Shown: one piece after another, positions 16,247 to 51,612 of the stretch
How the letters are laid out: each line of letters opens with the position of its first letter
How positions within the stretch are numbered: the first letter of the stretch is position 1
Source of the DNA: Symbiodinium natans
Lineage: Eukaryota; Sar; Dinophyceae; Suessiales; Symbiodiniaceae
Assembly: GCA_905221605.1 (NCBI GenBank)
Contig: CAJNDS010001635.1
Coordinates: 248,001-312,000 of the forward strand
Direction: 5' to 3'
DNA length: 64,000 nt
Notes under the pieces: model-generated
Database searches by the model: none
Seen by the model: only the letters and a program-made list of their open reading frames with translations
What the model was told of the DNA's origin: nothing
Position numbers and translations under genes: made by a program

Positions 16247-18932
<2,686 letters not shown>

Positions 18933-18933
18933 A

Positions 18934-18948
18934 CCATTCTGGCTCAAG
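18934..18948 (+). other. relic of the dinoflagellate spliced leader
   Basis: CCATTCTGGCTCAAG differs at one base from the 15 nt at the 3' end of the conserved 22-nt dinoflagellate spliced leader (CCATTTTGGCTCAAG, from memory). It is in sense orientation and ends 130 bp before the first in-frame ATG of the PCIF1-like gene. Such relics are established signs that a trans-spliced mRNA was reverse-transcribed and re-inserted. The first six or seven leader bases are not preserved, as is common. A chance 14/15 match on either strand of this window is expected about 0.005 times (my estimate). Confidence 0.6.
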
Positions 18949-19078
18949 AAGCAAGATGGGTTATGAATGCCTATCCCTGTATTAACAATGCGCAGGCCAT
19001 AGATCCGAAAAAGATCTCCCACCATGGGCTTATTATCCACAAGCAAGAGCAAGTAGCAGAGGACCGTGCAGTAAAGGC

Positions 19079-20923
19079 ATGGCAGTGCCGGGCCGGGGAA
19101 AGCGACAGCGGGCTGCTGATATCACGCCAATCGAATGGAAGAGCAACCAGGAAGTTCCGAGGCGCAATGGTGTGGCTTTGTGGGATTTTTCGGGCCCGAC
19201 ATCAGTAAAAGCGTCTGCGCCGCCGGCATCTTCCAGCCGAGAGCTGCGTCGTGCTGAGCTCTTCGAGCAGTTTCGGGTGTTTTACGCGGGGGTGTGTGCC
19301 GAGGTGCTTGGGCTGGAGAAGCCGCCCTCCGATTCCATCGACCGATGGCTGTTGGAACAGCTGGCACAACCCCGAAGTGCTCAGGCCACACGAGGTTCCA
19401 GGGATCCGCTGCTTCCATATCCTCGACTGGCGGAATCCTCCAACGTCCTGCGGCGAGAGTTGTTGGCCGAGGTGCCCATGCGATGCCATTCCCGAGTCAC
19501 GGGGAAGTTGGCGGAAGAGCAACTCGTCAGGTATTTGGGCCGAGCCAGAGAGTGGCTGATGAAGTTGCATGAGCCTGTGGATTCTGCGCTCTCCCGGGAA
19601 GTGAAGGCGCTGGGCGAGTGGCTGAAAGAGCATGACGGGAGCTGGAAAGGGGGTCGCAGGTCTGCTGAGGAGTGCCTCTTCCGGCGCAAGCTGGATGGGC
19701 TCGTCACGGAGACTGCAGGGGAGGTGGGGTTATCCGTGCGCTTTCGCGTTGCCGTCGAGGACAAGGCAGTGGAGATCCTTAAGAGGGTGTCTGACGAGGC
19801 CGAGTGTGTTGCAGAGCAGGTCATGGCTTTCCAGGCAGCTGGTGATGCTGAAGTGGCTTTGGAAGAAGCGAGTGAAGGCGCCCGTCGCTTTGCAATCCTT
19901 CGCTTTGGCCAGGATGCCATACCCATCTCCTGGATGCACCTCCAGAAGCTTGGTAGCCTGGTGGTGCCCTTTTCCCCCTTTTTGGGGGGGTTCAAGGTTC
20001 CCTCATGAAATACTTACTTAGCCAATAGTTGAACTTTAAACTTTTTGGGTTTCCTTGTTGAGTAGGAAAAACAAAGTTTAACCTTTCTGCCCCCTTGGCT
20101 ATTAAGAATATCCAACCCCAAAAAAGGGTGCCCTCAGAAAAATATTGTTACTGGGCTACCAAGGAAGCTACGAAGCTTGTACGAGGTTCACAACGGCCCA
20201 GCCGACACCAATAAGGACTGGGAGCCCATGTTCAGGCAAAGGCTCTACTGCATGCTGCGCCGCTACGTCACCTTCATCGGCCTTGACCCCTCAAAAGAAG
20301 GCCAAGGTGGTAACATGCATGCCGCAGCCCCCGAGTCGGTCTTCGCGTGGTTGCGCCAGGAGATGGGCGTGTCCTGCGAGCTCTTTGCCTCACCCCTGAA
20401 TTGCTACTTCGCCGAGTTTTACTCGGCTTTCCCTGATGTCGACTCTGCCTTTGGTTCACGAGGCTCATTCTTCGAAGTTGCAGAGCTGCCAGAGGGTTCC
20501 TATGAAGTGGGCCCCCCCTACACCGAGGAGGTGATGGACTTAATGGCCAAGAAGCTCTTGACCCTCCTGCGTGGCTCCGGTGCGCAGCCCCTAAGCTTCG
20601 TTGTATTCGTTCCGGATTGGGGTGACGCATGCACTGCGCTGGGGCTGATGAGCGGTGAGGACTTCAAACCCTTCCGACACTGCCGGCATGGAGGAAGCTT
20701 TGTCCTGGCCCGTGGGAGAGAGCACGAGTACATCTCTGGCGTGCAGTTCTTTCAGCACTCAGGCGCTGATGCATCGCGGCGGTACTACGACGTGCCTCAT
20801 GGCACCCGCATCTACGTTCTTCAAAACCCTGCTGGTGCGGCCAAGTGGCCCTTCACGGAGGAGAAGGAGCGCGCTCTCTTGGCAAAGCTGGCACCCGCTG
20901 CCCAGCATAAAAAATGCCCCTGA
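19079..20923 (+). CDS. PCIF1: PCIF1/CAPAM-like cap adenosine methyltransferase homologue
   Basis: Exons 19079-19944 and 20164-20923 join in phase to 541 codons. PCIF1 writes m6Am next to the mRNA cap and binds phosphorylated RNA polymerase II CTD. The second exon carries the hallmark core: FASPLNCYFAEFYSAFPDVD, then FGSRGSFF (SAM-site region), LSFVVFVPDW, a conserved EHEY, and LQNPAGAAKW near the C-terminus. Human PCIF1 has NPPF at the active site; here the aligned residues are GPPY (YEVGPPYTEE), so catalysis is doubtful. No WW domain is visible; the N-terminus has a basic GRGKRQR. The intron runs from a GA donor in the direct repeat GAAG to a TIR-end AG, and its removal restores HLQKLRSLYEVH exactly. 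The ATG at 19079 is the first after the spliced-leader relic in this frame, but the frame is open back to 18986. Almost intronless, unlike its neighbours. Confidence 0.85.
19949..20163. mobile_element. TIR element forming the only PCIF1 intron (introner)
   Basis: 215 bp with terminal inverted repeats: the left end CTTGGTAGCC matches the right end GGCTACCAAG, with weaker symmetry further in (GGTGCCCTTTT against AAAAGGGTGCC). A 4-bp direct repeat GAAG flanks it (19945-19948 and 20164-20167), as expected for a target-site duplication. Splicing CTCCA|GAAG...CCAAG|GAAG removes one GAAG plus the whole element. A second hairpin (about 20018-20108, AGCCAATAGTTGAAC against GTTTAACC..TTGGCT) is nested inside. 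The same family occurs at 40204-40283 and, in part, 54771-54819. Confidence 0.85.
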
Positions 20924-21457
20924 TCGCTGACTTGATTGGTCCCTACACTCCATGAGTGGCTGGGTGGGCGGCGGCAGCAAAACAAGCCCTGGCGACTAAA
21001 TGCAAACCCCAACCAGGTTTTGGGTCCAGATACTTGTAGCAGGTATCCCTAAACCCTAAACCTGAAACCCCTAAACCCCTAAAGCCCTAAACTCTGAACC
21101 CTAAATCTAGGGTATACGATCCGAATTTCAGGGTTCATGTGGTGCCCAAGTGGGGTTGAGGCATCCCAGAGTCATCCGGAGCTTCCGCGGTGAAAGCAAT
21201 GAGGGTTCATCATATGGGGTGTACGGCAGGGTTTGTGTAGGCTTTAAGCAGGGTTTTTATGGGTTTCGAGTAGGTTTTTGCGTAGGGTTTCATCGGGTTT
21301 GTGTAGGGCTTTTATAGGTTTTTAATTGGGAGGGTTTAATACATAGGGTTTACAGGGTTAGCTTTGTTCGAGCTCTAGGCTTTCCTTCAGCCGCTCGTAC
21401 ACCTCTCCCAACAGCAAAGCGAAGGCTTGAGCTTAAAATCGCTACAGCCGCTGAGCC
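20924..21457. other. intergenic; degenerate heptamers
   Basis: Holds CCCTAAA-type runs (21047-21115) and a GGGTTT-rich stretch (21225-21360). I see no gene, and no poly-A relic just after the PCIF1 stop. Confidence 0.6.
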
Positions 21458-38671: not shown

Positions 38672-41600
38672 GATGGACCTTCACTGCTGGCGTGTACTAC
38701 CCACCCGACTTCGATGCCTCGAAGTTGATGCCCGTCAAGGCATCTTGGCAAGTTCCGGGCCCCTCTGTTGGGGTTTAGGGTTTAGGGTTTAGGGTTTGGG
38801 GTTTGGGGTTTAGGGTTTAGGGTGCAGGGACAGCTTGTAGATGGGGCTCATGAGGGTCTTGATCTGGATCAGGATTCCAAATGTAGCTCTGACGCAGTGC
38901 GTTTCACGGCTGAGCTCGGACGGATTTTCATAGAGATTGCTGTTCAGAGCACCCCAGGACTCGGACTAGCGTTGACAGGCAATGTAGATTGAAGGGCTCC
39001 CAGCAGATTCCGAAGCCTCAGTGAACTGCTTGTTGTGGACATCTGTTTAAATCTGTCAGTGTCTATGGGCCTTAAGACCCCATACAACCCTAGCGTCGCA
39101 AGTTCAGTTTTGTCCATGGACCCTCCAAGCCCACGCGACCCCAGCGAAACCCTGAAACCCAGGGGCAAACCCTGCAAAACCTCATTGATCTAGGTCCAAA
39201 AAAGTTCACCCTAAACCCTAAATCCTAAACTCTACTCCTAAACCCTGAACCCTAAACCCTAGACCCTAAACCCTCGTGCGGGTGGCGAAACCCTGAACCA
39301 ACATTTTACAAAGTAGTAACGAGCATTGTTCCCTAGTGCGTCTCTCTGAGTCAGCTAGGCGAGTGGCAAAAAAACCTTAAATCCTAAACCCTAATCCCTA
39401 CCCCTAAACCCTAAACCCTAAACCCTAAACCCTAAACTCCGAGGGTCTGCTAGGCGGGTGGCAAAAAAAACCCTAAACTCCCGGGTGGCAAAAAAACTCC
39501 CTAAACCCTAAACCCGACCCCTAAACCCTGGATCCTAAAGAACCTGCAAGCTGAGCGCAAGGCCTTGAAGCCCAAGGGCCCCCAGATGATGAACATCCGA
39601 ATGATGCGGCTTGGGCCGCCTCCAAGGGCTTAGGATCTTGAGGGTTTAGGGTTTCTGGCTAGGGTTCAGGGGTTTGGGGTTTAGGGTTTAGGGTTTAGGG
39701 TTTTGCTGTTTTCGTTTGTCTTCGAGGCCTCGAAAAGGGTGTTTGGGGCTAATTGTAGGGTTTAGGGGTGCTCTTAGGGTTCAGGGCTTTCGGGCGGTGC
39801 GTTGGCTGCAGACCCTAAACCCTGAACAGCCCTACTAAACACTCTCAGCCTCAAAGTGCTTAGCCTAGAACCCTTCTAATCCCCTTAAAACCAAAAAGGG
39901 ACCCTTTCTTGTTCCTAGGTTACTCCCGGTTCTAGTAGTATTCCAGAGCTTGAATGGTCCGAGAGTCAAGAGCTCTACCCAACGGCTCTTGGGGCGATGG
40001 AAGAAGCTGGAGCCGCCCAAAGAGCGGAGACAGGGTTTAGGGTTTAGGGTTTGAGTCCCAGTTGCAAAAAGGGTTTGGGGTTTGATACAAAGGCCCGAAG
40101 GGCCCAATTGTTAGGCAACAGAGGGTCGAGGGCTGCGAATCACCGAGGTCGGTTCACCATTCGTAGAACCTTACTGCGGCAAGTGCTGGTACCACGAACC
40201 TTCCTTGGTGGCCCAGTGGTACCCCTTCTGCCCCTTGTTGGGGTTTCCCACCCTTGTTGTACTATGGCTCCTGGGCTACCAAGCTTCAAGCTCCGGGAGC
40301 GCTCAGGTTCCCGTTTACCATGGTCTGCGACTCATGCAAGGAGTACAACTACACAGGCCGGGTCTGCTGTTGAGGCTTCAGGGTTTGTTGGGGCTTTTGG
40401 GGCTTCTAAGCCGAGAGTGAAAACTGCAAACGTGATGATATGTGATGAAAAACCCTGGTGCACCACTGTGCAGGTGGTCACATGATTGATATCTCTTGTT
40501 CGGCATGATGTATTAAATCTCTGTCCCTTTTTCACTATGTCTCGGGGGTTGCCTGAGAACTGCCCGTCAAAAGCTGTGCACAAACCTCTTCCCGAAAGCC
40601 TCAACCCCAAAGGATCTTCACAGGGCGCCCATGAGTGCAACTGCAGCTGCTCGCGAGGTACCAAGTTCACGGCCAAGGTCGAGCAGATCAAGCGCGAGAG
40701 CTACCTTGGGCTGAAGGTAGGGTTTGCCTGATTCAAAGCTTCGGGGCCCTATAGGACTTCTAGAGTTAAGAGGGTCATGGGGCCGCGGGAATCGCGGGCC
40801 CGCTTGGCGAGAGAGCGAGAGAGAGATAGAGGGGGGAAAACATGTAAGAGATGAAACGCAAAAAATAAGGAGAAGAAAAGAGACACAGAGAGAGAAAGAG
40901 AGGCATCATGAACAAACGGGGCGGGGGTGGCAACCTCTGAAGTAAGAATTGTACATGGCTTTTGTTTCTTGGTGACTTAGCTAGCCCAGCATTCGGGATC
41001 TTCCCAAGAGGTTCACGCATTCGTGTGCGCCCGTGTGACATGGTTCCCACCCAGACCGTTTCATGCCGCAATCCAGCTTGAAGCAAAGCGTTGCAAGGTT
41101 CACTGTGACACCCCGCCATGAGGGAGGCTCATTTCTTGAGGCCTCGACCCTCCCGCCCTCCCAGCCCCCTGCTACAGTACTACGGGGCTCTCGAAGTAGC
41201 TCTCGAAGTAGATGGCGGCTCGAACCCCCAAACCCGACCCTTTACCCTCAAAAAACCCTAAACTCGAGAAGCCCAGAGTGAGTGGCATCCATCGTCGCTC
41301 GCGGGCAGGTGTACCGGTTCTACGGTAGATGCAGACACTGCTGGTCCGAGTTCACCTTCAAGACAGACCCAAAGAGCCTTGAGCTGGCTTTGTTCTTGTG
41401 CATTTTGATATATTTTGATTGCAGCAACCTTGTGTATGCTAGCGCCCCCCCTAGCACCGTCACAAGGTTTTGGAGCGTTTTTTTCTGGATCTTGCTCGGT
41501 GTTGTGGGTTTGTGGGGGGGGGGGGGAAGGGGGCGGTGGTGGCTCCTCCCCTTTGCAACTGATAAGGAATTCCGACTATACCATGGAGTCGGGTGGCAAG

Positions 41601-49832: not shown

Positions 49833-50244
49833 GACGGGGCGTCGGGAAAAATCAGCGCCGACCTGCTTTAGTGCCGGTCATCATGATTCGGGTTTTGCGG
49901 GTGCAGAGCCTAGGGCTGTAGTAGGCCGTGTGCCCTCACACCCCATGCAACCAGAGAAGCCCCAAACCTCAACTGACTTTCGGAGCCGGGCGGTGGCCAG
50001 GTACAGCTCTGTCATCAGTGTTTCGGCACAAAAGTTAGAGGAGAGCCTGGGTTTCAATGTACAGTTGGAGCTTCAGGGTTTGGGAGATCAAGCTTAGAAC
50101 TTCTGAGCCGAAGGCTTGGGTGTTGGGTTCAGGAACAGGAAGGTCTGTAGCATGCTTAGACACTTGCATTGGCGGTGCATCAGAACCCCCTGCAATCCCA
50201 GCATTTTCTGATTGTGGCTTGCCGGAGTCCGAATTACATCTGTT

Positions 50245-50312
50245 TTCTTCTACTATTACTACTTCTATCTCTATTACTTCGACTGTTACTCCTACTACTA
50301 CTACTACTACTC

Positions 50313-50406
<94 letters not shown>

Positions 50407-50443
50407 GACTACGACTGCTACTGCTACTGCTACAACTACTACA

Positions 50444-50496
<53 letters not shown>

Positions 50497-50605
50497 TACT
50501 TTTACTACTTCTACTACTTCTACTACTTCTACTACCACTACCACTACAACTACCACTACCACTACTGCTGCTACTACTACTACGACGACAACTACTACTA
50601 CTACT

Positions 50606-50658
<53 letters not shown>

Positions 50659-50795
50659 CACAACTACTACTACCACAACTACTACTACCACAACAACTAC
50701 TACCACAACTAGTACTACCACAACTACTACTACCACAACTAGTACTACCACAACTACTACTACCACAACTACGACTACCACATCTACTACCACAT

Positions 50796-50873
<78 letters not shown>
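50245..50873 (+). repeat. 630-bp (CTA)n microsatellite
   Basis: Almost entirely CTA/TAC trinucleotides with interspersed CCA, ACA, CTG and CGA variants, followed by (GAC)n to about 50955. Long poly-Thr, poly-Leu, poly-Tyr, poly-Val and poly-Ser frames on both strands are artefacts. Confidence 0.95.
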
Positions 50874-51004
50874 GATGGGGACGACGACGACGAGGACGAC
50901 GAGGACGATGAGGAGGACGAGGACGACCAGGACGACACGACGACGACGACGACTGCTATGACTGCCATGACTGTACTGTTGTTTCATTTTCCCCACACCC
51001 CCAG

Positions 51005-51612
51005 GAGGCTCTAGGTTTTCGCGCTGAATACGTCTACTTCCTACGCGACGGTTCCTGGATGTGGAGCTTTAAGGTGTAGGCTTTCGGGTTGGTGAAGGGA
51101 TGTGAAGGGTAAGTTGGGGGAGTGTTCGGTACCGTGTGGGTTTACGCTCCGTCGGACGGAGCCCTGTTAAGGGTGAACACTTTGCTGGTTGCTGGCTACA
51201 GGGGCTTGAAAGGGTTCAGAAGGTGAGCGTCCAAGATCGTCCAAGCTAAGGCGCTTGCGAGAAAGGCGCGAATTGGTCAATGGCTTTGGTGCTCCTCGGC
51301 TCGATTGAGAGGTCTATGGTTGAGGGTTTCGAGCCGTGGTTGCAAGGATTTGGGACCTCGGGCTAGGCTGGAACTGTAGGTGGGTCTGCTTTTCAGGACA
51401 TGATCCCGTCAATAGGAAGGGCAGCGCATGCGCAGGGCACATCTCTGCCGCACATCCTTGCATCTATAGTTCATGGAAGAGTTCCCAAGATTAAAACCGT
51501 TCGAAGCCACACGGCAGCGTGTCTGCACCAGCCGAGGTATCTTGAGCAGATGAAGAAGTGGGCCTGGGTCCAAGTTAGATCTGCGTGGCCCGATCGTTCT
51601 AGGAAAAATTAA
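51005..51612 (+). CDS. two-exon 3' end of an unknown gene
   Basis: Exon 51005-51073, after CACCCCCAG and just beyond the CTA/GAC microsatellite, reads ALGFRAEYVYFLRDGSWMWS and ends AAG|GTGTAG in phase 0. Exon 51397-51612, after TTTTCAG, starts in phase 0 and reads DMIPSIGRAAHAQGTSLPHI, then HTAACLHQPRYLEQMKKWAW, to a TAA. Phase agreement and the natural stop support it. Aromatic-rich first exon, basic second exon. Family unknown. Confidence 0.55.

Follow-up and report, generated by a model that had tools for sequence, protein, structure and literature searches.

A PCIF1-like gene of Symbiodinium natans, lying in the 64,000-nucleotide window analysed here (G000:C1635:248001-312000), probably owes its present form to the retroposition of an mRNA, the loss of its parent, the conversion of a MITE into its sole intron and the nesting of a second MITE within the first. 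According to this scheme, a trans-spliced and fully or largely cis-spliced PCIF1-like mRNA would have been reverse-transcribed and inserted elsewhere, together with its leader, in the S. natans lineage, and the intron-bearing parent would then have been lost, leaving an orphan retrogene. A TIR element of about 117 bp would later have entered the coding region and duplicated GAAG. With a GA donor provided by the target-site duplication (TSD) and an AG acceptor at its own end, the element would be removable as an intron with exact restoration of the frame. Still later, a second TIR element would have inserted into the first. The coordinates of all features are given in Table 1.

Table 1. Features of the PCIF1-like locus, in window positions.
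Feature	Position	Strand	Description
Candidate 5' target-site duplication of the retrocopy	18916..18925	+	CCAGGTTTTG, direct repeat with 21013-21022
Spliced-leader relic	18934..18948	+	CCATTCTGGCTCAAG, 14/15 to CCATTTTGGCTCAAG; ends 130 bp before ATG 19079
Exon 1, PCIF1-like gene	19079..19944	+	866 bp, open; ATG at 19079
Codons 163-171, place of the inferred old intron	19565..19591	+	Continuous in the window; 7/9 genome-derived models start or stop there
Inferred GA-AG intron	19945..20163	+	219 bp, TSD copy GAAG plus element
Outer TIR element (MITE)	19949..20163	+	215 bp including nested element; 10-bp perfect TIRs CTTGGTAGCC/GGCTACCAAG, TSD GAAG
Inner TIR element, second MITE family	20013..20106	+	TSD AATA; short deletion at right end
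Exon 2	20164..20923	+	760 bp, open; carries PCIF1_WW Pfam domain
Motif GPPY	20510-20521	+	Stands where PCIF1 has NPPF
Candidate 3' target-site duplication	21013..21022	+	CCAGGTTTTG, 89 bp past the stop codon

Gene structure and predicted product

The two long exons noted in a preliminary description of this DNA are both open and join in frame once the intervening segment is excised, giving a predicted product of 541 residues. The start of exon 1 lines up with residue 1 of the relative P0092 in the alignment, and exon 2 shares 73% identity with the full-length relatives P0003 and P0004. PCIF1 is the cap-adjacent m6Am methyltransferase, with NPPF as its catalytic motif. The S. natans product resembles it in carrying the Pfam domain PCIF1_WW (PF12237; residues 290-479, E 2.6e-49) and in matching the solved PCIF1 chains 6irx and 6irv, but differs from it in that the 541-residue product has no Pfam match to the WW domain and GPPY replaces NPPF. 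Since NPPF is absent and GPPY stands instead, the gene is called PCIF1-like. Judging from the sequence, a protein of the GPPY type may differ from PCIF1 in its catalysis.

Among 88 protein matches, GPPY is found in 45, NPPF in 27 and a variant in 4, with no pattern match in the remaining 12. All of the top 24 matches carry GPPY, which is also present in some further protists, among them Acrasis and Barthelona, and two other PCIF1-like places in the same genome carry NPPF. Horizontal transfer of an intronless gene was set aside, because the matches with a named source are all eukaryotes and, among the closest ones, those named are dinoflagellates. Elsewhere in the window, ten further open reading frames gave no Pfam match, and long overlapping open frames of up to 284 residues occupy both strands at 50035-51014, two of which were tested and showed no Pfam match.

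A spliced-leader relic upstream of the start codon

The sense match to the spliced leader that had been described upstream of the ATG was recovered at the same coordinates and is the sole match with at most one mismatch to the 15-mer on either strand of the window. At up to three mismatches, the window contains 2 matches against 3.04 expected; the weight of the relic therefore rests on its one-mismatch score. Across the 759.4-Mb assembly, the 15-mer occurs with at most one mismatch at 690 + 665 = 1,355 sites, compared with 10 + 5 = 15 for the reversed control, and the exact 21-mer leader occurs at 104 + 101 sites, compared with 0 for the reversed pattern. From the genome counts, we calculate an expectation of about 1.2e-4 relics for any 130-bp stretch on a single strand, background by itself giving 1-2e-6. 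In the accessible text of PMC12014239, the relic unit of retrogenes is the leader minus its first seven nucleotides, and the 15-mer of the window corresponds exactly to this unit. As to a longer relic, for which a check had been suggested, the 7 nucleotides immediately upstream match the leader at 3/7 positions (by hand) and its first part is unrecognisable there. No poly(A) was seen at the locus. By eye, five ATGs were counted between the relic and the start codon; a stop comes after the one that is in frame.

Some of these features enter into one of the least probable explanations, in which the gene is not a retrogene but belongs to a lineage with few introns, and the 15-mer is unrelated or represents a separately inserted leader-like sequence. 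The mismatch in the relic, the missing upstream 7 nucleotides, the lack of poly(A) and the 15 reversed-control matches, which show that such matches do arise by chance in this genome, are compatible with it. However, the expected number of relics in a single-stranded stretch of this length is about 1e-4, and breaks in the gene models are common to the relatives.

A gene-model break shared by relatives is continuous in the window

These breaks emerged from an alignment of 30 relatives, consisting of 28 of the 88 protein matches (P0003-P0029 and P0051) together with P0092 and P0093; P0091, an open reading frame of the window itself, was left out. Nine of the 30 are genome-derived by label, including those labelled symbB, s354 and s1634, which we take to be genome-derived models. 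Seven of these nine start or stop at residues 163-171, namely P0015 (Polarella, labelled partial), P0017 (Cladocopium), P0019, P0028, P0051 (S. microadriaticum), P0092 and P0093. P0092 and P0093 finish there with a few unrelated residues, as if an intron had been read, and P0028 and P0093, numbered on one scaffold (s354_g12 and s354_g10), cover opposite sides of the break. The other two, P0003 (Durusdinium) and P0027 (Symbiodinium sp. CCMP2592), are continuous across these residues. Among the remaining 21 relatives, which are mostly transcript-like, 18 are likewise continuous and P0016, P0025 and P0026 start further downstream. Because seven of nine genome-derived models share the break, the simplest reading is that an old intron lay at these codons, was missed by the predictors in seven models and is absent from the window. 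P0027 also diverges near residues 24, 267-278 and 300, which may reflect further introns or model errors.

The element sequence coincides with a predicted intron

The 215-bp TIR element with a GAAG duplication was confirmed, its perfect TIRs bounding the segment between the exons. The predicted intron takes its GA donor from the TSD and its AG acceptor from the element, whose end reads CCAAG. When GAAG and the element are excised together, the product reads MHLQ|KLR at codon 289, where the 27 relatives covering the junction are ungapped. Two other donors were considered and rejected. The frame permits a GC-AG intron at 19948-20163, but this would insert a lysine that none of the 27 junction-covering relatives has, and a GT donor at 19953 leaves the AGs ending at 20163, 20167 and 20175 all out of frame (by hand). 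The gene prediction of S. natans allowed for GA donors, according to the accessible portion of PMC8045281.

Both elements have diverged from their families. The outer copy is identical to its consensus in 94/111 columns, where the mean difference of 40 copies is 13.7%. The inner copy is identical in 85/98 columns, a figure into which misalignment around the short deletion also enters, and the mean difference of 29 copies, chosen as the best matches to this one, is 4.6%. Such divergence is a rough clock only and not a date. In simulations without indels, unprotected exons accumulated a mean of 3.2 stops at a divergence of 0.05, with 4.05% free of any, and a mean of 5.5 stops at 0.087, a rough hand estimate for the inner element that leaves out the misaligned columns, with 0.35% free of any; the real exons contain 0 stops. 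Selection points to splicing, the two exons being free of stops in spite of the divergence of the elements, and we infer from these sequences that the element is spliced out. The contrary case, in which the element is unspliced and the gene interrupted and decaying, appears very improbable, the most so of all the explanations. In its favour, the exon 1 frame reaches a stop at 20006-20008 inside the element; the open exons and the 73% identity of exon 2 to P0003 and P0004, despite the divergence of both elements, speak against it. The earlier proposal of intron gain by a TIR element is strengthened by a large family with 4-bp TSDs and by the restored junction of the relatives.

A copy of a spliced mRNA starts intron-free, so that an intron in a retrogene is either inherited or new. 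For the intron to be inherited, a trans-spliced but only partly cis-spliced mRNA would have been copied, with the element-intron already present in the parent and predating retroposition. Intron-keeping retrogenes are reported in dinoflagellates in the available part of PMC6050394, but inheritance would require this intron to be kept while the inferred intron at codons 163-171 was lost. The relatives cross codon 289 without extra residues, which also argues against it, although a spliced intron would look alike. We regard inheritance as unlikely and favour retroposition before intron gain. The order of events put forward in the preliminary description accordingly stands in part: the element lies within a candidate retrogene, and intron gain may have followed retroposition. 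On a narrow balance, the gene appears to be an orphan retrogene that was stripped of its introns, regained one by MITE capture and had it enlarged by a second MITE.

Target site, parent gene and neighbour

Flanking target-site duplications and poly(A) are supporting marks of retrogenes. The upstream copy of the direct repeat at this locus ends 8 bp 5' of the relic, and its extension to 18929 gives a 13/14 match. Wider margins of 150 and 327 bp were used in the first repeat search, whose output included shorter repeats; the control was built for the relic-side repeat. The same layout occurs at 109/8792 control positions, and the 13/14 version at 28/2931. Because 109 of 8792 positions match as well, the 10-bp repeat gives weak support. 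Degenerate CCCTAAA-type repeats lie just 3' of the candidate 3' duplication, at 21040-21110.

Genome searches with each exon detected no second copy of the gene: P0001 matched itself only, and P0002, besides itself, matched two other places, with identities of 39 and 45% and nothing higher. The multi-exon PCIF1 parent expected from the preliminary description was thus not found above 45% identity, and no intron-bearing parent gene was found in the genome. The models P0027 and P0051, from other Symbiodinium, both run on into one common unrelated downstream protein. This protein is not in the window but is encoded at C153:183959-184963, with 84% identity over its main part, so that in S. natans the PCIF1-like gene lies apart from the neighbour that these models imply. 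The gene would have relocated in the S. natans lineage.

A possible parental fossil lies near the implied neighbour, as a 20/21 match at C153:178862-178882. The region scores 18 without gaps (sense), exceeding all 26 background scores of 11-17. In BLAST bits the match reaches 34.6, a value surpassed by one match (36.5) in 258,919 background bases, for an expectation of about 0.07 in 19 kb. Gapped scoring of the region peaks at 43, at another place and within the 33-60 range of 20 background scores, and a profile search of C153 165000-194000 for a PCIF1 remnant gave nothing above noise. The interval holds no clear-cut PCIF1 remnant, and the match carries no weight in the present reading.

The same searches bear on in-place intron loss, whereby a cDNA recombined with the original locus, the gene stayed unmoved and its neighbours changed in other Symbiodinium or by rearrangement. 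In its favour, neither a second copy nor a clearly vacated locus turned up, and either neighbour arrangement may be the older. The upstream leader relic and the weak candidate TSD nevertheless fit insertion better, and the implied neighbour is on another contig; we judge in-place loss to be as improbable as inheritance of the intron. Retroposition of a trans-spliced mRNA, as originally suggested, is backed by the relic unit, the missing break and the neighbour on another contig, and the parent may have had many exons.

Relation to published introners and retrogenes

In the accessible text of Gozashti et al. 2022 (PMC9860276), introners of S. microadriaticum have TIRs, a 4-bp TSD, their own 3' splice site and a TSD-derived 5' splice site, and the published example of family 1 spans 115 bp. 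The S. natans element has TIRs, a 4-bp TSD and a splice-site layout in common with family 1, a likeness of description. What sets the S. natans copy apart from family 1 as described there is the second element nested in it, which has added to its length, and its location in a likely retrogene. DinoSL-tagged retrogenes of Symbiodiniaceae carry a leader relic upstream of the start and may contain introns (PMC6050394, PMC12014239, accessible parts), and most leader-tagged retrogenes of dinoflagellates are orphans (PMC6050394, likewise). The present gene resembles them in its relic before the start, the absence of a detected parent and the presence of an intron; unlike those in the available descriptions, its intron is a recognisable mobile element, giving a candidate order of events.

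Leader-tagged, orphan and intron-bearing retrogenes and Symbiodinium TIR introners are each already published. Their ordered combination in one gene, retrogene first and introner second, was not found in the literature searched, which consisted mostly of papers outside subscription. By title, the literature on introners and retrogenes included nothing on dinoflagellates, and that on retrogene intron gain by a transposable element in dinoflagellates yielded a general review alone; nothing was found on PCIF1 in dinoflagellates. Because a recognisable element, itself host to a younger one, makes up the sole intron, intron gain can be ordered relative to retroposition. Applied across relic-bearing Symbiodinium genes, this approach would measure the speed of introner refilling, and if the pattern is general, leader relics would serve as a genome-wide clock for introner gain in dinoflagellate retrogenes.

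Element families across the genome

MITEs are nonautonomous DNA transposons, short, with TIRs and a TSD of fixed length. For the outer family, 1,014 exact-TIR pairs were found in two searched spacer ranges, 947 with a spacer of 80-110 bp and 67, including this copy, with 181-211 bp; the reversed-pattern control gave 0. Since the TIR pattern is palindromic, the forward and reverse counts represent the same copies. The 4-bp flanks are identical at 23 of 51 loci including the window and one base off at 15; among 59 copies without the window, the corresponding numbers are 24 and 19. These 59 copies are the head of the match lists and constitute a non-random sample. For the inner family, a first look gave 1967 candidates, of which 40 were scored.

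Of the 59 outer copies, 10 lie in frames that stay open for 35 codons to either side. The other 49 do not, so the outer family is mainly an ordinary MITE family, and the notion that its members are mainly intronic is unsupported. With about 1,000 copies, most of the sampled ones lying outside long open frames, the family behaves like MITEs in general; the copy in the PCIF1-like gene, unlike ordinary MITEs, lies in coding sequence and is apparently used as an intron. Among the ten copies in open frames, the TSD starts with GT, GC or GA in four (L045, L046, L094 and L099) and otherwise in six (L073, L083, L091, L101, L102 and L108). Six of the open frames were searched against Pfam. For L094, an RCC1-like match spans the junction (E 1.9e-4), and for L045 there is a TPR match (E 0.013); neither reaches its curated cut-off. 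The frames of L083, L091, L099 and L101 gave no match. The L099 frame is matched by two short open reading frames.

Some of these MITEs seem to have acquired internal telomere-like tracts: at least two telomere-type units (CCCTAAA/TTTAGGG) lie inside the element in 6 of 10 long copies (L043-L052, 201-235 bp), compared with 0 of 49 short ones. The window itself contains a second copy of the outer element, of 80 bp, at 40204-40283, with an apparent TSD of CTTC on both sides.
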